Below, piece by piece: positions 1-63,922 of a stretch of DNA of 64,000 nt. The translations under genes were made by a program, and so were the position numbers. Numbering within the stretch: the first letter of the stretch is position 1; each line of letters opens with the position of its first letter. This DNA is from Triparma columacea (Eukaryota; Sar; Bolidophyceae; Parmales; Triparmaceae), in contig BRYA01000190.1 of the NCBI GenBank assembly GCA_030267965.1, positions 1-64,000 on the forward strand. The letters are read 5' to 3'. Under the pieces are notes generated by a model. That model ran no database searches. It was not told the origin of the DNA and worked only from the letters and a program-made list of their open reading frames with translations.

Positions 1-80
1 CCTAACCCTAACCCTAACCCTAACCCTAACCCTAACCCTAACCCTAACCCTAACCCTAACCCTTAACCCTAACCCTAACC
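1..80. repeat. Telomere repeat array, (CCCTAA)n
   Basis: About 13 tandem copies of CCCTAA with one seven-base variant (CCCTTAA) near position 60-65. The C-rich strand reads 5' to 3' from base 1, which is the orientation expected at a left chromosome end, so the window starts at a real terminus and not at an interstitial array. The G-rich strand is TTAGGG, the type shared by animals, most fungi and stramenopiles. Confidence 0.97.
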
Positions 81-120
81 ACTTCCCTAACAAATCAAAA
101 AATAACACTTATCATATCCT

Positions 121-283
121 ACACCCTTTACACCCTTACACCCTTTACACCCTTTACACCCTTTACACCCTTTACACCCTTTACACCCTTTACACCCTTT
201 ACACCCTTTACACCCTTTACACCCTTTACACCCTTTACATCCTTTACCCTCTTTACACCCTTTACACAATTTACACAATTTAT
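121..283. repeat. Subtelomeric 9-bp satellite, unit CTTTACACC
   Basis: About 15 near-perfect copies of a 9-bp unit lie just inside the telomere. The first unit and the last few carry single-base changes, and decayed relatives (tttacacaa, tttaacact) continue to about 345. Because the unit is a multiple of three it produces open reading frames such as KGV repeats on the minus strand. These are artefacts of the repeat and not genes. Confidence 0.93.
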
Positions 284-760
284 ACCTTTAACACTCTCTA
301 CACCCTTTACACAATTTACACACTTTAACTTACCTTTACACATATCTTTCCATCTTATACCCTCCTCTTTTCTACTTTCCTCTTTCACACTTTCACTTCT
401 CTCCACAACAACACTCACTCTCCTTCAACTCATCTTCATATACATCTACTACACTTCCATTATACTCACAAACCACTATTATACCTCCACAATTCTTAAA
501 ACTTCAAACACTTTCACTACACTTCTACAATACTCACAAACAACCCTAACACTTTCACAACTCTCAAAAACTCCATACACTCCCACGATACTTCCATTAT
601 ACTCACAAACCACTATAATGCTCACACAATACATCTACGACACCTTTACAATATTCCCAACAATAACAAATCAAATCAATTTCTCCTACAAATGTTGCTG
701 CCCTATTAGTCACACCTCACCCATATCTTCCATTGGCAAGACACTGCTTACTTTAGCCTT
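284..760. other. Subtelomeric spacer with a 27-bp direct repeat
   Basis: An A/C/T-rich, G-poor spacer between the satellite and the first gene. A segment beginning acttccattatactc and ending accactat occurs at about 453-479 and again at 590-616. No reading frame with protein-like composition is seen on either strand. Confidence 0.6.
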
Positions 761-3700
761 TCAACCTCCCACCCCAATAATAACTCCACCATCAGCGCCT
801 CCAACACTTGCTCTCCTAATACTTGCCCTTAAAGCACCTGCTAGACCACCCTCAGCTTCAGCATCAACACTTGCTCTCCTCACACTCTCTCTCCTTCTAG
901 CATCTCCTTCTGCTGGAATAAAATTTACAGGAACCAAAGCTTTTATTTCATCAGTGAACCACTCTGGCTGCTCCTCTTCCCATTTAGCCCAGTTTAAGCC
1001 GACCCACTTCTTAACTTCTCCTTCAATTGAGACCCAATGATGCCTTGAGAACCAAAAGACTACAATCTTAATAGCATCACTTTCTCCTTCAAGAAAGTAT
1101 GCCATTGACATATCCTTTGACCTCTGTGTACTCCAGAAGGTGTGCCAGTACTTCCTGTCAATATTCCAAAAGAAGACTGCCAAGCACAGGCCAGTTATCG
1201 GTATGAAATACTTCACAATCAATGATGCAATATCAATTGCCTTCTTATCAACATAAGGTGAAGCTATATCTACTGACACTGGTAGACTTACCATTGTCAA
1301 CAGAAGACCAAACAACCAATACACTCCTCCAACTTCATTTGGATGTCTCAAATGCACAATTGATGTGAAGTCTGTAACTATCTTTGCTAACACTCTGCCA
1401 ATAATGCTACTTACAATCTCTAAGTTGCCCCCCAATGGTGTCCAATACCAGAAGTCACCCCTCAATATCTTAACCAACATATACAGACCAAGGTCAGCTC
1501 CAATGTAGAGAAAGGCCCAACTACCTCCAATTAATCCAAGAAGAACTATTGTTGTACACCTTATTAGAAGCATTCCTGCTGTCAACAACAACATGGACAC
1601 AAATACTACTGTTCTCTTGCTTGCTTTTGCTGGTATATACCCATAGAAGTCTGGTTTTCCTTCTCTATTAGCAGGGGCTGTGTCCCAGTCATAACTAATT
1701 GTTGCAGAGGCAAAACCTGTTGTAATTGCTGACACTGCAACAGAAAGCCATGCTGTAACTCCAACATCTTTGCTGCTTGTTACTACAGCCATAAGTTGGA
1801 TGATCACTCCAGGAATTGCCTCAGCAAACATCTCAAAACCTTTCATACCTGTCATCTCCAGCATTGGGTCAATTGCAGTCCCAACCTCTTGCTTGGCTCC
1901 AGTTGCCACCCTGTAAGCGTCAACTGCAGGCTTGTACCCAAGCAAGATTGGAAGCCACTCCCTTAAGACCTTCTTCATCCCCAACTTCCTGTTTATTATC
2001 CAAACAGCAATCATCTGAAGCCCGATGGACATTACCAAACTTGCCAAAGATGCCTTAAAGTACCCATACTTCTCATCTCTCCAAAACATGTACGTCACAT
2101 ACACATCAGTCAGCAAATCAGACATACTTGTGATAGCGCCAACAGTCACTCTCGCCTTCAACCCCCAAGGAACTTCCTCCAAAAGCCTGTAGCTAATTAT
2201 CTCAAGCATGGGTCTGAACCATTCATATTCCTCATCAAGCTCCTGCAAAGCAGGGAACTGGTGCATCCACTCATCAACAGCGGATTGCACCTGCGTAGTA
2301 GTTGCCAATGTTGACGCTAGGCTATCGCCAATCTCCTTCCCGTCCTTCCTCTCCAGGTCCTTTGCTGCCCCCTCCACCTTCCTAATCCTGTGCAGCTTGT
2401 TCATGACAACAGCGCAAAGCATTGGTGTGACAAACACATATTTCTCTGTAGCCTGTCTCAGAACATAGTTTGACCCTATAAATAACATCACTGCCTCCTC
2501 CTTTGTCATTCCCTTCTTCCTGAAACTTATTGCAACCAGCAGTTGCTCACCCAACAACTTTCCTATTTGTTTAGGATCTAAGCCTGCATATTCTTGTGAA
2601 TTATCATTCACAGCTCGTGAAGCAATTAGTGCACCTCCATTGTCCATGCCAACACTTGCTCTCCTAATACTTGCTCTAAAAGCACCTGCTATACCAACCT
2701 CAGCTGCAGCATCAACACTTGCTCTCCTCACACTCTCTCTCCTTCTAGCACCTCCTGCTGCTGGAATAAACTCTACTGGCACCTTTGCTTTCAATTGATC
2801 AGTAAACCACTCTGGCAGCACTTCTTCCCATATAGCCCAGTTTAAGCCAACCCACTTCTTTATTTCCCCTTCAATTGAACTCCAGTGATGCCTTGATTTT
2901 TCAAAGACTTGAATCTTTATAGCATTGCTTTCCCCTTCAAGGAAATATGCCATTGTCCAGTCCTTTCCCCTTTGTGTACTCCAGAAGGTTGGGCAGTACT
3001 TTTCTTTAATGTTCAAAAAGAAGACAGCAAAGCATATGGTAGTGAGTGGTATGAAATACTTCATGATTGTCGATGCTATATCAATAGCACTCTCATTCAC
3101 ATTAGAATGAGCTACAAATATTGACACTGGTAGGCTTCCCATTGTCATTGCTAGACCAAACAACCAATATACTCCACCAATATCGTATGGATGCCTAAAC
3201 TGCACTATCAAGGTGAAGTCTACAATGATCTTTGTCACAACTCTGCCTAAAATACTACTCAAAATCTCTAAGTTGCTCCCCAAAGGAAACCACCACCAGA
3301 AATCTCCCCTCAAAATCTTAACCAATAAGTACAAACCAAGGTCGGCTCCAATGTAGAGAAGAGCCCAACTACCTCCCATCAACCCAAGAAGAACTATTGT
3401 TGTGCACCTAATTAAAAGCATCCCCGCTGTCAACAGCAACATTGACACAAACACTATTGTTCTCTTTCTTGCTTCAGCAGGTATATAGCCATAGAAGTCT
3501 GGTGCCATTTCTCTCCTAGCAGGGTCTGTGTCCAAGTCATAACTAATTGTCGCTGAGGCAAAGCCTGTTGTAACTGCTGAAACTGCAAGTGAAAGCCATG
3601 CTGAAGTTCCAACATCTTTGTCACTGGTTGCTATAGCCATAAGTTGGATAATCACTCCAGGAATTGCCTCAGCAATCATCTCAATAACTTTCATGACTGT

Positions 3701-4450
3701 CATCTCAAGCATTGCGTCAAGTGCAGTCCCAACCTCTTGCTTTGCTCCAGTTGCCACCCTGTAAGCATCAACTGCAGGCTTGTACCCGAAATAGATTGGA
3801 ATCCACTCACGTACCACTTTCTTCATCCCCAAGTTCCTGTTCTGTAACCACACAAAAAGCATCTGAAACCCAATAGACACTGCCAAACTTGCCAAAGAAG
3901 CTTTGAAGTACCCATACTTCCGATCACTCCAAAATGTATGTGTCACATACACATCAGTCAACAAATCCACCATGCTTGTGACGGCACCAAAAGTAACCCT
4001 TGCCCTCAAGCCTAAGGTAGACTTCAGAAATAATTTCGTAACAATCTCTTCAAGCATGGGCCTTAACCATACATGCTCATTCATGACTTCTTGCACTTCA
4101 GTGAATTGATGCGCCCACTCGTCTACAGCATGAGCAGGAGTCAAAGTAGTCAACATTACTGCTGTCATTGCACTCCCAATCTCCCACCCCCTGGCTTCCT
4201 CCTCACTCTTTTCTTCTCCCTCATTTCTTGCTCTCCTTTTAAATTTGTTCATAACCACAGCATAAAGCATAGTTCTCATGAAACCGTGCTGCTCTGTAGT
4301 CTCTGTCAGTGCCCTATTAGCAGCAATAAATTCCTTCACGACCTCTACCTTACTGTCCATGACTTTTCTTTTCTTCACTCTCTCCATCAGCTGCTCTCCA
4401 AACCTCCTCCCATCCTGTTCCCCTGCTTCTGTGCTCTTCAGCAGATTATC
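761..4450 (-). repeat. Internal tandem duplication of the membrane module (period 1,848 nt)
   Basis: Two copies, about 761-2600 and 2609-4450, lie within the giant gene. Matching landmarks (for instance the stretch starting aacacttgctctcc at 803 and 2651) are exactly 1,848 nt or 616 codons apart, so the duplication is in frame. Long stretches are still recognisable at nucleotide level with scattered substitutions, mostly silent or conservative in the translation. Confidence 0.9.
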
Positions 4451-7400
4451 AAAGTAGTAAGCAGCATCAGTTGCCGTGCTCAGGTGCTCAACTACACTCT
4501 GTTTGCTGGCAGCTTTTCCTAAACCCTTATGTCTAGTCATCATTTCAATGTCTGTCTTCATCTGGCCAGCCTCAGAAAACTTCACAGCTGTGAATACTTT
4601 TGTTTTTGAGCCAATCGTGGTACTACTCAGTGAGCTGTCGATTGAGTCAATCCTGGTACTGCTCAGTGAGCTCAGTGAGCGTTTTGGTGCAAACGCTTCT
4701 TGGTTACCTGTGATTACAAGTGTCTTGTTATTAACTCTGTGAAGCTCAAGCTGGGATTCAAATCCACTTTCAGGGCCCCAGAAGAATGCTGCAACTTCCT
4801 TGTGAGATGCTCTCACAGTTATTGAAGTCTTCCCCCAACCCATTCCCTTCTCTGCCTTTATCAATGTCTGTCCAGTCAACCCACTACTGATCTCTTGAGC
4901 TCCATCAATCTCGTCGAAGTGACTGTCAGTCCCTGGAACTCCCTCAATTGCAATCTCCTCAAACTTTTGAATGATCTGCTGTCTCTTAAAGGGTTCAATC
5001 TTTTTGCTCTTGTCAAACTTCTTCCTTAATTCTGAGACTTGTGCAAGAAACCTTGGTGCAAGCTTGTTCACAATGGAGGAGAAGAAAAAACCGCCAAGGT
5101 CTACATTTGTTGTGAAAGTGACTGATGTTTGTGGAACACCTCCGATAGCGTCAAGTGGCTCAAACACCCATACTGTGTGAATCTTAACTAAAATATTTCC
5201 AGCCTTCACTGGAAATTCTTCCTGAAGTTCATCTGTGTCTGTAACATCAATGATCACTTTGCCGTCATCTTGCTTGAACCAGGTCATTTTACTCCTTCCA
5301 TCACGAGGGTTAAAACCAGGAATACCAAGATTCCTTGTTAAGAAGTAGTAGCAAGTGTGATTGCTTATGCTCTTGACGCTATACTCTGTAATTCCTCTTT
5401 CTTTTGATGTTCTTTTGAACTTTCTAGAATCCATAAACTCGTGAGCAGCACACTCCTCCACACTAGCATCAACTACAGTAGTGGCAAAACCAGTGCCACT
5501 GCTTGCCCCATCAACATGAACTAGCTTCATCTTGACCCTTTCATCGGGACTCTTCAGATCATCAAAGTTCTCCTCCTTCTCACACTTCTCATAAAACTCC
5601 ATCCCCTTCCTGATTGCCTGCTTCTCCTCATCTGTATAATCTTGAGTCTCATTCTTGATAATGTTGGCAAGAGAGGCCAGTGCAGCTTTATCAACCTCTT
5701 CATCTTTATTGAAATATGTTCTTAAGTCAGCAACTGCACCCAGGGCGTTTGGTATCTTTTTGTCAACAAGAGATTTAGGTAAGTGGCCTGCTGCATCAGC
5801 ATGTTGTAGTAGCTCAATCTTGCACTGAGGAACTCCACTAACATTTTCAATGTTAGTTGCGATAAATATGGCTCGTGTTGTTCCTCTTACCAATGTCCAA
5901 GCACTCCCACCATAGTCAACCTCATCTTTCAGAGGCCAGACAGCAACAGAAATGGATTTGTGTGTGTCATTTCTCAGTATTAGCTTGTTGACAAACTCTC
6001 GATTGCTAATGAACTTTGGTAATTTCTTTATGGTCGCAATCACTTTCTCGTTGGGTTTACCCTTGTATGTTTGTATCTCTAGTCTAGCCAGATTCCCTTC
6101 CTCCCTGTCAACAGCCATCCTCTCCCTGCTACAATACTCAAAGTACCAAGCAGCAGCTTCTTCTGCAGTACAGTCTGCTTCACCAAGAGCTCTGCCAAGT
6201 GCAATGCTCTTCTCTCCCTTCAACTGTTGTCTATATTTGATCTCCATCTCCACTCCCTCATAAGGTGACTCAAGAGGCCCCCATCTTCCTTCCTTCTCCC
6301 CACCAAAGAGCTTCTCCAACTCCCCAAACACCTTCTTCTGGTCCTCCTCCAACTCAACGCCCTCCCTCATCCTCTCCACCAAGGCCCCCCTGACCTCAGC
6401 ATCAACTTCCTTCCCGTTCCTCCTGAACTTCTCCTGCAACCTGTTGGCCTCAACAAGCTCGTTCTTTGCAAGGTAGTCAATTGCTTTGTCCATCAGTGTC
6501 TTTTGAAGGCCTTTGAAGTGCAGATCAACTGTCTGAATACGTGTCACCCTACAGACATTTGGAGCAATCTCCTTGAAGAAGAGGGCACCTGTAGTCTCTG
6601 CCAGCACAAATCCTTCCTTACTGAGGTCCTTGAAGCCTCCTCCTGGGTACTCTGTCAGAGGCACAAAAGCTACCATGTAGAAAGTCTGACCATTCTCAAG
6701 TTTAATATTCTTCCACACAAACCAATTCTCAAATAGTCGATTGGTGAAGGCAGGGACCTTAATGCAAGCATGACAGTGCATGCTTCTAGTTCTGTCAAAA
6801 TCATTCCTGATTACCCTTGGTAAGTTCCCATTATTTTTGAAGTGTTTCTCAGACTTCGCAAATGTGTCAAGCAGAAATTCCTCTGCCAATACACCCTTCG
6901 CTGACTTGTCCACAGTGACCCCAAAGGCTGCCCACACATTGTCCTCCTCTCTCCACAGGAACTTGTCAATGCCCTCTTTTAGTGTCCCCTTGACTCTCTT
7001 CCCCTTTGTGTGAAGTGCCTTCTCTAGCCTCCCAACCCTCTCCAACATTGCGTCCTCCTCTATTGTCAGAGGCGGTGCTCTCGGCATGATCTCCTCTACA
7101 AAGTGTCTTTTCCTCCGCTCGTCAATGACTGAAGGCTGTCTGAACTTCTTCATGACTTCATCTAGAATTCCCTTCCATGAAACAAATACATCCTTGTAAG
7201 CTCCTTGCTTGACACTGCTGATGCTGCTTATTTTCCTTCCAACGTTTGTAAACTTGGCAGATTTAAAGCCTTTGACTGTGCGAACATCAACTTCTGATTT
7301 TGTCTCTAATGTTCTCTCCTCTGCCTTAAGAGTTCCCACCATGGTTACTGCAGTTTGTCCAAACTCGTAATCAGTGAAGCGGAGTTTGCCCTTAATAACA

Positions 7401-8462
7401 CCTCGCTTGACAGTCTTGGTATTTGCTAACGCTAGAATTTCGACAAGCTTCGCAGTTGCCTCATCAGAAAGGTCATCCTCATCAAGGGGTGCCAACTCCA
7501 TAATGTGCGTCGATTCGTTGGGAGATACGACTTTGACGTTGAGGAGAAATTCGACAAACTTATTCCCGCTGCCGTAGTGCTGCCAGTAGACGAGTCTGTG
7601 AATGACTCCTCCCTCTTCGTCATACTCGTGGAGGGTCTTCCTTCGGAACTTGCCCTGCTCACAATCGGTGAGTAGAAAGTCGATGATCTTGTCACGCTCG
7701 TCATGGAAAACATCAGCGAGCTCCATAACCTTCACATCGACGTAGAGTTGTTGGGTTGTTCGGTTGTCAATGAGGCCTTCAACGGCTCCTCTGTCCTCCA
7801 GAAGCTTGACAAGTTTGCCTTGTTCAGGACCGAGGGCTGCGTAATTGACCTCGACTGGACCATGTATTGCGGAGGGTGTGTGATTGGGGCCTGAGGGGGG
7901 CTCGGAGGCATAGTTGGTCTTGCCGGCGTCATTCACGACTCCCGCATCTGCTTCAACCTCGCCCTCCATGACGATCTTACTTGGGTGCTGAAAATCATGC
8001 GTTCGCGATTGACGTGTGAAGAAGAGCAACGGAAAGTTGTTCTTAGGTGTGAGTAAAGATGTCGTAAATTGGCATATTCTGTCATCCATCCCCTGTCCAT
8101 ACGCCCTCCCAACTTACCTCTTCATTATAATCCTGCGGCTCATTCCTGATGACGTCGGCAAGAGCCTTCAGTTTGGCTTGGTTAATCTCTTCGTCAGTCA
8201 ACTTGGTGTCACCGATTTTTTTCTCTAACGAATTATCGGCGTCGTCAAGCTCGTCAGGAGGAGCGTAGACGCGAGTAACGCGTCCCTTCTCCATATCATT
8301 GTGATCATTTGAGTCAACAACGTCTTCAGCAGCACCTACAATCCCCTCGTTTACTTCGCTCTCGATGTTGACAAGTTTTCCTTTGGCAGTGGTACCCCTC
8401 TCAACATCGTTTGCAGCGATGATGTGCTTGTCCTCCAGCTTGGGGCTCGCTTGAGTGCTCAT
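761..8462 (-). CDS. Giant START-like / XK-related-like membrane protein (2,523 aa)
   Basis: Two exons join in phase 0: 8118-8462 and 761-7987, with a GTAAGT donor and TTTTCAG acceptor. The start at 8462 is the last ATG before the conserved-looking acidic N-terminus. Residues about 448-1110 hold three START-like (SRPBCC) modules roughly 240 residues apart, marked by repeated SP-E-V-MK openings and GGVPQ strands. Further related, weaker segments flank them. Residues about 1350-1900 and 1965-2523 are two copies of one multi-pass membrane module. Each has DLLTDVYVT or a close variant, an E-x3-E-x2-P-x4-Q helix and a late R-GDFW motif, a pattern resembling XK-related (XKR) scramblases. Each copy ends in an RRRESVRRASVD-type basic tail. 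Lipid binding plus membrane lipid movement is inference. An unrelated polytopic fold is the main alternative. Confidence 0.72.
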
Positions 8463-9434: not shown

Positions 9435-10457
9435 TTACGCCTTCATTTCGTTAACTCTCTTGAAGACCTCCTCCTCTCTCCTCCTAAGTCTATCCTCCCA
9501 TCCTCCCTCCCCCTCCATTCCCTTCCCCCAAACCTCCTCTCCCTCCTTTTCGCTTTCTTCGCTTTCCTCCCCCTCTTCTACCCCTCCCCCCTCCATTTCC
9601 CTAATGATCCTCTCCCTCTCCTTCCTTCTCCGTCTTTCCATATCCTCCAAGCTTTCCCTATCCCTCCCATCCTTAATCCCTCCCTCCCCCCCCCCCCCCT
9701 TCCCCCACCCCTCCCTTCCAGCCTTCTCCTCCCCCCCCTTCCACGCCGCTCTTACGTTCACGTCGTCCTTGAATCTCTCCACGATACCCCTCCTAGTTTC
9801 ATCCCCCCCCTCAACCCATACCTTGGCCTCTACCCCGTTGTCCTCCCACTTGATCTTACCAACCCTCCCCCCTTTTCCCTCCACGACGTCCCTTATCCAG
9901 GCCTCTGTTACGTTCGATTTGTATGCCTTCTTCCACTTGAACGAGACCTTCTTAACCTTATCGTCCTCCTTCCTTTCCTTCTTCGCCTTCCTCTCCTCTC
10001 TTTCCCTTTTCTCTCTTTCCCTAACTCTATCCAGATTCCCTCTCATAGCCTCCGCCTCCCTCTCCGCTTCCTTCCTCCTCCCTTCCTCCCCCATCCATCC
10101 TTTCTTACCTCTCATAGCCTCCTGTTCTCGTTTGTTAAGCTCGTCTAACATACCCTTCCTCTTCTTACCCATGTTATCCCTCCTCTCTAACTCTCTTTCT
10201 GCCTTTCGTTTCTCCTTAAGTATTGTCTCATCGTAAGCTAGCTTCAACTTCTCGTCTTTAAGCACCTCGTAACTACTCTTAACCTTCATGAACATATCCT
10301 CAGCCACCTTCCTTTGTTCATCTGATTTACCACGCTGTTTGTCGGGGTGGTACTTTAGGGACAGCTTCTTGTAGGCTTTACTAACTACTGAGGGGGGGGA
10401 TAGGACGGGGATACCGAGGATTTCATAATGATCGATGAATTGAGGAGGTTGTGACAT
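9435..10457 (-). CDS. DNAJC17/Cwf23-like J-domain protein with RRM-like segment
   Basis: Single exon, 340 residues. Residues 8-80 form a J domain: DHYEILGI at the start, then AYKKLSLKYHPDK carrying the HPD motif that stimulates Hsp70 ATPase. A long charged coiled-coil region follows. Around residues 170-225 the strand pattern VSFKWKK...GKIKWEDNGVEAKVWVE fits the degenerate RRM of the DNAJC17 (yeast Cwf23) family, whose members work with the spliceosome in the nucleus. The C-terminus is Glu/Gly/Arg-rich with poly-G coding, so its exact length could be affected by sequencing of homopolymers. ATG at 10457 is the only good start ahead of the J domain. Confidence 0.82.
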   Translation of the reverse strand: MSQPPQFIDHYEILGIPVLSPPSVVSKAYKKLSLKYHPDKQRGKSDEQRKVAEDMFMKVKSSYEVLKDEKLKLAYDETILKEKRKAERELERRDNMGKKRKGMLDELNKREQEAMRGKKGWMGEEGRRKEAEREAEAMRGNLDRVREREKREREERKAKKERKEDDKVKKVSFKWKKAYKSNVTEAWIRDVVEGKGGRVGKIKWEDNGVEAKVWVEGGDETRRGIVERFKDDVNVRAAWKGGEEKAGREGWGKGGGGEGGIKDGRDRESLEDMERRRRKERERIIREMEGGGVEEGEESEESEKEGEEVWGKGMEGEGGWEDRLRRREEEVFKRVNEMKA

Positions 10458-61210: not shown

Positions 61211-63922
61211 ATGGCATCCATAGTAAGGAGCATAGGGTCATTGTTTTCGCCCTCTAAGCCCAAAGAGGTACCCAAGGATGACGCATCAGAGGGCACCAAG
61301 AAGTACAAGAAGAACAAGAAGGGTATGTCGCAGGATGTCCCTGCAAGTGTCCTTGAAACCAGCTCTGATGACCCCATCAGCCAGCTAACGCAGGACTCGG
61401 ACGACGAGGACGACAATATGCCCATCACTCAGGCCGACGAGACCAGCTCTAAGAAGAGCGGAGGCTCTAAGAAGTCCAGCAAGGTGAGAGTTCAAAAGAG
61501 GAGAGGGGGAATGATGATGAGGACGACGATGTGGTGATATTCATGACGATAGGGTATACCACAGAGAGATTGGATGTCAACGCAATGTGGATGTCAACGC
61601 AATGTAGTGACTGACCCCCCCTTCCTCACCCCCACCCCAGTCCAAGGCCTCCAAGACCTCCAAGTCTACCAAGTCCAAGAAGGCCGCCCCCAAGAAGCCC
61701 ACTACCAAGAAACCTGCCACCAAGGCCACCAAGGCCAAGGCCAAGGCCAAGGTCAAGGCCGAGCCCACCCCCGCCCCCTCTACCAAGACCAAGCCAAAGA
61801 CGAAGAAGGCCGCCTCCAAGGCAAGTAAGGCCAAGAAGAAGGCGGAGAAGGAGTCCAAGAAGAAGAAGGAGAAGAAGCCTGTGGCGGGAAAGAAGACGAA
61901 GGCCAAGGCCAAGGTGAGAGAGAGGGGGGGGAGGGGAAGAAACACAAATGAAGAGGAGTTTTAACCTAACACTACATAACTCGCTCGCTGCCCCCTTCAG
62001 AGCTCCAAGATGCCCAAACCTAGCGCCAAGGCCGACACCCGTCCCTGGACCAAGGTCGAGGAGGAGGCCCTCCGCAACGCCGTCACCAAGTACGGCGAGT
62101 CCTCCTGGCAGGCCATCGTCAACGACCCAGCCTACGCCCACGAGCTTAGGAACAGGTCGAACATCGACTGCAAGGACAAGTGGAGGAACATCAAGAGGGC
62201 GGACCAGTACATGGAGATGCCGAGGAGGATGCAGATGGTCGTGGAGGTGAGAGAAGGAGAAGGGAGATTTTAGAGGAGATGAAAGCACAGAAATTAATAG
62301 CTAACGCACTTCCTTCGGTAATCGATTCGCTTCGCCTCACCCCGCCTCGTCTCGTCTCGCCTCGCCTTTGCTCTTCCCTATCTCCCCAACAGGGACCGAG
62401 GGTACTGGGGGGAGGTATCGTGGCCAATGTTACCAAGCAGGGTAAGGTCAAGAACATGAGGAAGCAGGTCGGCTCCAAGCGCATCCTCGGAGGAATCGAG
62501 GTCGACCTCGTCGACGACGAGGCCGCCGACGAGGTCGACCCCTACATGGGCACCGTCGTATCCCAGGCTGTCATCGCCCACGCCATCCCCGAGCAGATCA
62601 CCACCCTCGAAGGAATCACCGGGCAGCTCTCCCAGCTCACCAACGTCATCGCGGTCGAGGGAATCGTCGAGCAGCTCGAGGCCCTCAAGGAGAGGATGGA
62701 GAACGACGCGAGGCAGGCGGAGATCGACCTCACCGAGGAAGAGGAGGAGGAGGAGGAGGAGGAGAAGGGGAAGAAAGGAAAGAAGGGGAAGAAGGGAAAG
62801 AAGGGCGCCAAGAAGGCCAAGGTCAACAAAAAGGGCAAGGCAAAGGCCGGCGCCGCCGCCACCAAGGAAGACTGCGTCCCCGGAACCGACCTCGTCCTCA
62901 AGGACGGGACCGTCGTCACCGTCAAGAGCTTCTCGAAGGGCTGGGTCACCCCAGAGGCCGGCGGGAAGAAGATTCGCCTCAAGGGACTCTTCCTTGCCAA
63001 GGAGTACGAGGAGGTCGAGGAGGAGGTCGAGGAGGAGAAGGGGAAGAAAGGAAAGAAGGGGAAGAAGGGCGCCAAGAAGGCCAAGGTCGACAAAAAGGCC
63101 AAGGTCGACAAAAAGGGCAAGGCAAAGGCCGGCGCCGCCGCCACCAAGGAAGACTGCGTCCCCGGAACCGACCTCGTCCTCAAGGACGGGACCGTCGTCA
63201 CCGTCAAGAGCTTCTCGACGGGCTGGGTCACCTCGGAGGCCGGCGGGAAGAAGCTTCGCCTCAAGGGACTCTTTGTCGCCAAGGAGTACGAGGAGGTCGA
63301 GGAGGAGGCCGAGGAGGAGGCCCCTAAGAAGGGTAAGAAGGGAGGAAAGAAGGGAGGAAAGAAGGGCAAGAAGGACGCGGCCGTCGTTGAGGAGGCCGCG
63401 ACAAGGCCAGCTAGGGGAAGCAAGGGCAAGGGCAAGGGCAAGGGCAAGGACAAGGCCGTAGCCAAGAAGGCACAGCCCAAGAAGAAGCCAGCCCCGACCA
63501 AGGCCAAGAAGGCCGCCCCTAAGAAGGCTGCCCCTAAGAAGGCCGCCCCTAAGAAGGCTGCCCCTAAGAAGGCTGCCCCTAAGAAGGCTGCCCCTAAGAA
63601 GGCTGCCCCTAAGAAGGCCGCCCCTAAGAAGGCTGCCCCCAAGAAGGACAAAACCTATGAGTCCCCCGGGAAGAAGGCCAAGGGCTGGGCCTACGAGGAG
63701 GTCGCCTCGAGTCCGGACGAGTACGAGGTCCTCGCGCCCAAGCGCTCACGCACCAACACTTTCCCCGACCTCCCGGCGAGGAAGAGGGTGCAGAGCTCAC
63801 CAGCGAGGATGGAGAACAAGAAGAAGGGGGGGGCAGCCAAGAAGACAAAGGCAGCCGCACCAGCCAAAAAGGCACAGAAGAGCAAGAAGAAAAAGGCTGG
63901 AGGCAAGAAGGGAAGGAAGTGA
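61211..63922 (+). CDS. Lys-rich nuclear protein with telobox-type Myb domain (773 aa)
   Basis: Exons 61211-61483, 61641-61913, 62001-62246 and 62393-63922 join in phase 0. Residues about 196-248 are one Myb/SANT repeat (RPWTKVEEEALRNAVTKYG, then RNRSNIDCKDKWRNIKR); the third helix closely matches the telobox VDLKDKWRN of telomere-binding Myb proteins. Exon 2 is a histone-H1-like Lys/Ala/Pro region. Exon 4 carries two near-identical copies of a module (EDCVPGTDLVLKDGTVVTVK ... LRLKGLF) separated by acidic and Lys-rich linkers, then about ten AAPKK repeats and a basic tail. DNA or telomeric repeat binding in the nucleus is inferred from the telobox. A general H1-like chromatin protein is the alternative. 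Confidence 0.82.
62824..63303. repeat. In-frame tandem duplication of a coding module (two copies, about 280-nt period)
   Basis: The segment from aagggcaaggcaaaggccgg through aaggagtacgaggaggtcga at 62830-63020 recurs at about 63115-63308 with only a few substitutions. Both encode the same 60-residue module of the Myb protein. The high nucleotide identity points to a recent duplication or to gene conversion. Confidence 0.88.
63505..63648. repeat. 15-bp coding repeat encoding AAPKK
   Basis: About ten copies of gcccctaagaaggct and close variants, encoding Ala-Ala-Pro-Lys-Lys, as in histone H1 tails. The copy number could be unstable in both replication and assembly. Confidence 0.92.

Follow-up and report, generated by a model that had tools for sequence, protein, structure and literature searches.

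The closest described relatives of the gene analyzed here are the XKR proteins XKR8, XKR9, and XKR4 (PF09815) and the START lipid-transfer domains of CERT/STARD11, StAR, STARD4, and STARD10 (PF01852). In animals, XK partners the transfer protein VPS13A. Telomere-proximal, many-copy mosaic families with reassorted domains are also known, with Plasmodium var as an example. The present gene lies at the telomeric end of a 64,000-nucleotide stretch of Triparma columacea DNA (contig BRYA01000190.1, positions 1 to 64,000, referred to here as the window). Its main open frame, P0001, joins a series of START-like domains to two tandem XKR membrane cores.

Compared with XKR8, XKR9, and XKR4, the Triparma protein is algal, has two cores per chain, is fused to a START array, and carries tails with RRxS clusters. 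Its START domains share the helix-grip fold of the named START proteins, and domain 4 matches the CERT START domain, with approximately 16% identity between the array and CERT in the alignment. Unlike these proteins, the Triparma array places four or five such domains in tandem on a polytopic protein and is highly variable between paralogues. As in XK–VPS13A, an XKR-family membrane protein would be paired with a lipid-transfer partner; VPS13A is a separate, bridge-type transfer protein, whereas the Triparma START domains are in the same chain. In place of the surface adhesin of Plasmodium var, the part that varies here is probably a cytosolic lipid binder.

Earlier work has reported in general terms that Parmales are enriched in START and carry START fusions, START being among their most enriched domains and found in multi-domain proteins (excerpts of Ban et al. 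2023, PMC10328945). The main text of that paper does not contain the terms XK-related, telomer, chromosome, scramblase, or subtelomer, and its Figure 2c may list the pair. No report of a START-XKR fusion, of its telomeric repertoire, or of minichromosomes was found in the open-licence literature. We read the gene as encoding a membrane-anchored lipid-handling protein, in which a START lipid-binding array is coupled to a duplicated scramblase core, within a family that reassorts its START types. The probability given to this reading is roughly 55%.

Fold of the membrane cores and the START array

The XKR half was identified by both profile and structure. Pfam XK-related (PF09815) matches P0001 in two stretches and scores 31.0 bits, above its curated cut-off of 24.8. 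For the predicted structure of each membrane module, solved XKR structures are by far the best of the listed matches. Identity between the two modules is 73% for protein and 81% for DNA. XKR9 has buried acidic residues on transmembrane helices 1 and 3 (TM1 and TM3) and a kinked TM3 with a PQL sequence (excerpts of PMC8298096). These features have counterparts in the Triparma cores, where the D-x3-D and K-x2-E-x3-E-x2-P-x4-Q motifs are conserved. TM3 aligns with XKR9 FETYLEGCPQLILQ, the PQL position reading PGV, and TM1 also aligns, weakly on its own. Clusters of RRxS, mostly in the tails that follow the cores, are present in 19 of 19 copies counted. XKR8 is activated by tail phosphorylation or caspase cleavage (excerpts of PMC10938166).

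The START half was not visible to direct searches. PF01852 has no match to P0001 (E up to 1) or to its START half (E up to 0.1), and single-sequence PDB searches also did not show START in the window's copy; alignments and structure prediction were therefore needed to recognize it. In the START-half alignment, PF01852 matches 12 of 25 members (E up to 0.1), the best at 6.4e-14, and PF09815 matches 18 of 25 members of the alignment of the same relatives at the same threshold. Domain 4 of the predicted model has a full helix-grip START domain and covers 206 residues of the CERT START structure at 3.2 Å. Hydrophobic segments are absent from the array, with none ahead of residue 1406.

The initial annotation, made from the sequence alone, had proposed three START-like segments followed by a tandem XKR-related-like membrane module. 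The membrane module is confirmed by the profile and structure matches above. The three segments fall on START domains 2, 3, and 4, but the array comprises about five helix-grip domains rather than three; domains 1 and 5 had been omitted. Structure prediction, in which an unrelated fold would have counted against that proposal, returned XKR structures for the membrane modules and START structures for START domain 4. Its residue numbers are approximately 115 higher than those of P0001, consistent with a count from position 8462, and after this shift its membrane module falls on XKR core 1.

Telomere-facing copies, mosaic structure, and chromosome size

The assembly searched is 37.85 Mb in 789 contigs; the published table gives 43.0 Mb and 1,858 scaffolds (excerpts of PMC10328945). 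Contig C507 of the searched assembly matches the annotated T. columacea protein TrCOL_g8666 at 100% in two pieces (residues 1-603 and 598-1387 of 1393), which identifies it as the assembly of this species or a subset of that assembly. A 24-base motif from the START side has 259 matches (up to 3 mismatches), and an XKR-side motif, which can occur twice or more per gene, has 430. The reversed-pattern control gave 0 for each. Placement was taken from the first 100 listed places per motif search. For the XKR motif, these 100 places are spread over 79 contigs, and 97 of them lie within 8 kb of a contig end and point outward. The three others, one at C62:39183 and two at C207:27622-29473, may be internal copies or joins made in assembly. 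Among the first 100 telomere-search rows are 16 telomere-bearing ends, 14 of which carry a family gene. These 14 include ends of C2, C27, and C53, the last by a START piece only; none was seen in a 1.5-kb slice of C68 and of one C70 end. Telomere junction patterns had only 8 and 19 matches, and ends were not counted from them. Of 781 and 652 candidates, the protein searches scored 77 and 58, respectively, and the lists they gave are therefore minimum sets. The family has at least about 250 telomere-facing copies, perhaps several hundred. An in-frame stop is absent from 76 of the 77 XKR2 matches listed, and the other protein-search listings show one stop in 59 rows and three in 41 rows.

Beyond the assembly, a search with the XKR-half alignment found at least 104 homologous proteins (7988 candidates sharing most words were scored). 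The named organisms among the 104 are all Triparma (T. columacea, T. laevis, T. strigata, and T. pacifica), and the rest come from metagenomes or transcriptomes. Two metagenome proteins, P0023 and P0110, have both Pfam domains in precomputed annotation. The N-terminus of P0012, from a T. pacifica transcriptome, reads as a different multi-helix membrane region before START-like and XKR parts; this protein has no Pfam match at E 0.01.

Twenty copies were fetched for comparison. They were picked for contig-start location and long open frames, so intact START-bearing genes are over-represented. The alignment contains 19 of them (L015 was dropped for runs of N) and the window's copy, with a mean protein identity of 65.6% (range 46.5–77.0%). 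L021, at the start of C379, has a different N-terminal half, in which an extra XKR-like stretch replaces the usual START region, and was excluded from the correlations, types, and ratios of nonsynonymous to synonymous divergence (dN/dS). L011, L012, L014, and L018 make up a class of shorter copies, in which START domains are fewer and the N-termini differ (MST... in L011 and L014). Their columns are possibly non-equivalent, and the final correlations and types use the remaining 15 copies (105 pairs).

Within a START domain, pairwise identities agree between its two halves (rho 0.66–0.84) and between interleaved codons (0.74–0.96), as they do in XKR core 1 (0.78 and 0.89). Between START domains they are uncorrelated (rho −0.31 to 0.20), as are START domains and core 1 (−0.18 to 0.29). 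With 19 copies, rho between START domains ranges from −0.12 to 0.62. The pattern is otherwise unchanged; the two exceptions, domains 1 and 3 (0.62) and 2 and 3 (0.38), drop to 0.03 and −0.26 without the short class. Core 2 has an identity of 0.844 with a standard deviation of 0.011 and an interleaved rho of −0.06 (−0.01 with 19 copies); because core 2 has no internal correlation, the absence of correlation between it and the rest of the gene carries no information. So narrow a spread fits an exchange that erases genealogy, but on its own it also lowers rho. For the window's gene, the best-matching paralogue switches 27 times across 30 windows.

START domains 1 to 5 sort into 3, 3, 5, 4, and 2 types, respectively, by single linkage at 65% identity, and each XKR core has one type. 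Including the short class (19 copies), the START counts are 4, 5, 6, 6, and 3. Median dN/dS is 0.22–0.38 in every segment, and median dN is 0.37–0.39 in START domains 2–4 compared with 0.11–0.14 in the XKR cores (19 copies). For START-half segments, between 10 and 52 of the 168–171 pairs in each have a saturated dS. Domain 1 shows a median dN of 0.50, above its median dS of 0.45, because saturated pairs drop out, and the START-half ratios are therefore rough. The copies are mosaic and under purifying selection, with the XKR part as the conserved, homogenized half and the START part as the variable half. The fast-evolving subtelomeric family suggested in the initial annotation is borne out by the motif counts, the positions, and this mosaic structure.

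Fifteen contigs, C34, C209, and C340 among them, have outward-facing family genes at both ends. Thirteen of them measure 64.6–101.4 kb; the lengths of C46 and C252, taken from match positions, are lower bounds only. At the far ends of C285, C379, and C36 the gene is partial, running off the contig, with 33–71% identity. On C70 (75,484 bases), a telomere array is present at each end. Among 20 contigs that start with a family gene (the window's and 19 of the 20 fetched), a gene is also present at the far end in 7 of 9 longer than 70 kb and in 0 of 11 shorter ones (Fisher p 0.0005; the 70-kb division was chosen after the lengths had been seen). The contig carrying the window, at 90,833 bases, is one of the two longer contigs without a far-end gene. 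The mean of 14 measured contigs is 82 kb, which corresponds to approximately 460 chromosomes in 37.85 Mb, and the largest contig with a returned length is 129.5 kb. Judged from these short-read contigs, the nucleus may contain several hundred minichromosomes. Assembly artefact was considered as their source; the outward genes at both ends and the double telomeres of C70 argue against it.

Features of the window

Features of the gene and of the chromosome end are listed in Table 1. The telomere-adjacent position given in the initial annotation holds, with a telomere array and a 9-base array at the start of the window. The main frame ends approximately 430 bases from the 9-base array, and transcription runs toward the telomere. 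The ATG at 7969 is the likelier start of the main protein because the relatives P0006, P0017, and P0025 also begin there. A separate frame from the ATG at 8462 encodes an N-terminus of a second paralogue class, the N-terminal type of the shorter class described above. This segment would either splice into the main frame through its donor-like sequence or be a recombination relic.

Table 1. Coordinates of features in the window (aa, amino acids)
Feature	Residues	Position	Strand	Basis or remark
Telomere array (CCCTAA)n		1..80	.	tandem repeat detection and sequence
Subtelomeric TTTACACCC-type tandem array		120..327	.	period 9, 23.2 copies
Main open frame P0001	2442 aa	761..8089	minus	uninterrupted; likely start codon at 7969 (MEGEVEAD...)
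Core 2 tail with RRxS clusters		794..907	minus	
XKR core 2	~1966-2311	1157..2194	minus	
K-x2-E-x3-E-x2-P-x4-Q motif, core 2	2083-2098	1796..1843	minus	conservation
D-x3-D motif, core 2	D1991, D1995	2105..2119	minus	conservation
Core 1 tail with RRxS clusters (candidate kinase sites)		2645..2752	minus	
XKR core 1	~1356-1701	2987..4024	minus	
K-x2-E-x3-E-x2-P-x4-Q motif, core 1	1467-1482	3644..3691	minus	proposed Xkr8 K134/E137/E141 counterpart; alignment and conservation (excerpts of PMC8500837)
D-x3-D motif, core 1	D1375, D1379	3953..3967	minus	proposed Xkr8 D26/D30 counterpart; weak alone (excerpts of PMC8500837)
Probable helix-grip domain 5	~1049-1214	4448..4945	minus	model secondary structure only; no fold row of its own
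START domain 4	~815-1046	4952..5647	minus	full CERT-like START fold
START domain 3	~559-813	5651..6415	minus	
START-like domain 2	~298-554	6428..7198	minus	
Helix-grip domain 1	~119-258	7316..7735	minus	Bet v1-type fold row
Putative N-terminal exon or relic, MST... N-terminal class, then GTAAGT donor-like sequence		8118..8462	minus	tblastn to L011, L014, L017, L023, L012

A DnaJ-domain gene adjoins at 9435-10457 on the minus strand (Pfam E 7.7e-16). A 282-base tandem repeat of approximately 2 copies, rich in AAG/GAG triplets, occupies 62744-63319.

Proposed function and alternatives

In the proposed mechanism, a cytosolic array of about five START/Bet v1-type pockets would bind particular lipids, and the two tandem XKR cores would let phospholipid cross the bilayer. 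The START domains may deliver lipid to the inner leaflet, take lipid from it, or be lipid-gated there, and the cores would equilibrate inner-leaflet lipid with the outer leaflet. One chain would thus both carry and scramble lipid, as the initial annotation had supposed. Each core is followed by an RRxS-rich tail, a candidate for a plug under phosphorylation control like that of XKR8. By analogy with XKR8 and XKR9, in which the regulated tail lies in the cytosol, the variable part is predicted to be cytosolic. A variable START half joined to a homogeneous XKR half suggests multiple inputs with a single output. Ectopic recombination would reassort START types onto a homogenized XKR output, and the resulting repertoire would vary in lipid specificity but share one effect.

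Several observations weigh against this lipid-handling reading. START and XKR are non-obligate partners, because copies with a single core and XKR arrays both exist without START. L002, L003, and L005 (741, 739, and 777 codons) consist of a MEGEVEAD leader and a single XKR core; the three copies read carry the related leader MEGEVEADVG. The metagenome proteins P0003 and P0019 read as approximately two to three tandem XKR modules without START (Pfam XK-related falls below the cut-off in P0003 and has no match in P0019). Frames are shorter than 1000 codons in 14 of the 77 listed XKR matches, one of them cut by a contig edge; the three read among these 14 have a single XKR core and no START. Domains 1 and 5 are incomplete or atypical. 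The D-x3-D portion of the XKR9 alignment has only 5 bits on its own, and no counterpart was located for the Xkr8 path residue R183 or gate residue W45, there being no residue-level XKR8 alignment in those helices. Only XKR4, XKR8, and XKR9 of the nine human XKR members are said to activate scrambling (excerpts of PMC8298096).

Lipid could instead be the signal rather than the cargo, in a telomere-borne sensor and effector repertoire of an immune-like or death-signalling kind. The variable START domains would then detect foreign or damage-derived lipids, for example from viruses, bacteria, or grazers, and trigger an XKR output such as phosphatidylserine exposure. The several START types per position over a single type for each core fit this alternative, as do the many copies at chromosome ends with reassortment between them and the role of XKR8 output as a death signal in animals (excerpts of PMC8500837 and PMC8298096). 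However, median dN/dS is below 0.4 in all START segments, with no pervasive positive selection seen at this resolution (dS being partly saturated), and Pfam shows no other domain family above the cut-off in the window's protein. We consider a sensor role unlikely, and a passive origin of the family's abundance less likely still. In that case the copies would be subtelomeric hitch-hikers, multiplied by free exchange between ends, with a functionless copy number and at least one functional copy. Free exchange predicts the lack of genealogical structure in core 2 and agrees with the terminal, outward-facing placement; passive passengers should decay, however, and both the near absence of stops from the listed XKR2 matches and the low dN/dS in every segment weigh against this alternative. 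The family is also large, mosaic, and subtelomeric in the manner of a var-like surface antigen family with antigenic variation. Since its variable part, which lacks hydrophobic segments, should be intracellular and the organism is a free-living alga, this reading is highly improbable and was set aside.

Membrane biologists are actively asking whether lipid-transfer proteins and scramblases act as coupled machines, and the lipid-handling reading bears on this. A covalent fusion that occurs naturally in many variants makes such coupling testable in one polypeptide, and the family offers an example of domain shuffling near chromosome ends in a free-living alga. We suggest only tentatively that most ends of several hundred chromosomes, of roughly 65–130 kb, are capped by a combinatorial family, its cytosolic START lipid sensors being recombined onto a shared, duplicated XKR output. 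If true, this would be a repertoire-type gene family with a lipid-reading variable part, of which we know of no earlier example, in a nucleus fragmented into minichromosomes. The placement of the family also brings to light what seems to be a nucleus with hundreds of very small chromosomes, in the lineage sister to the diatoms.
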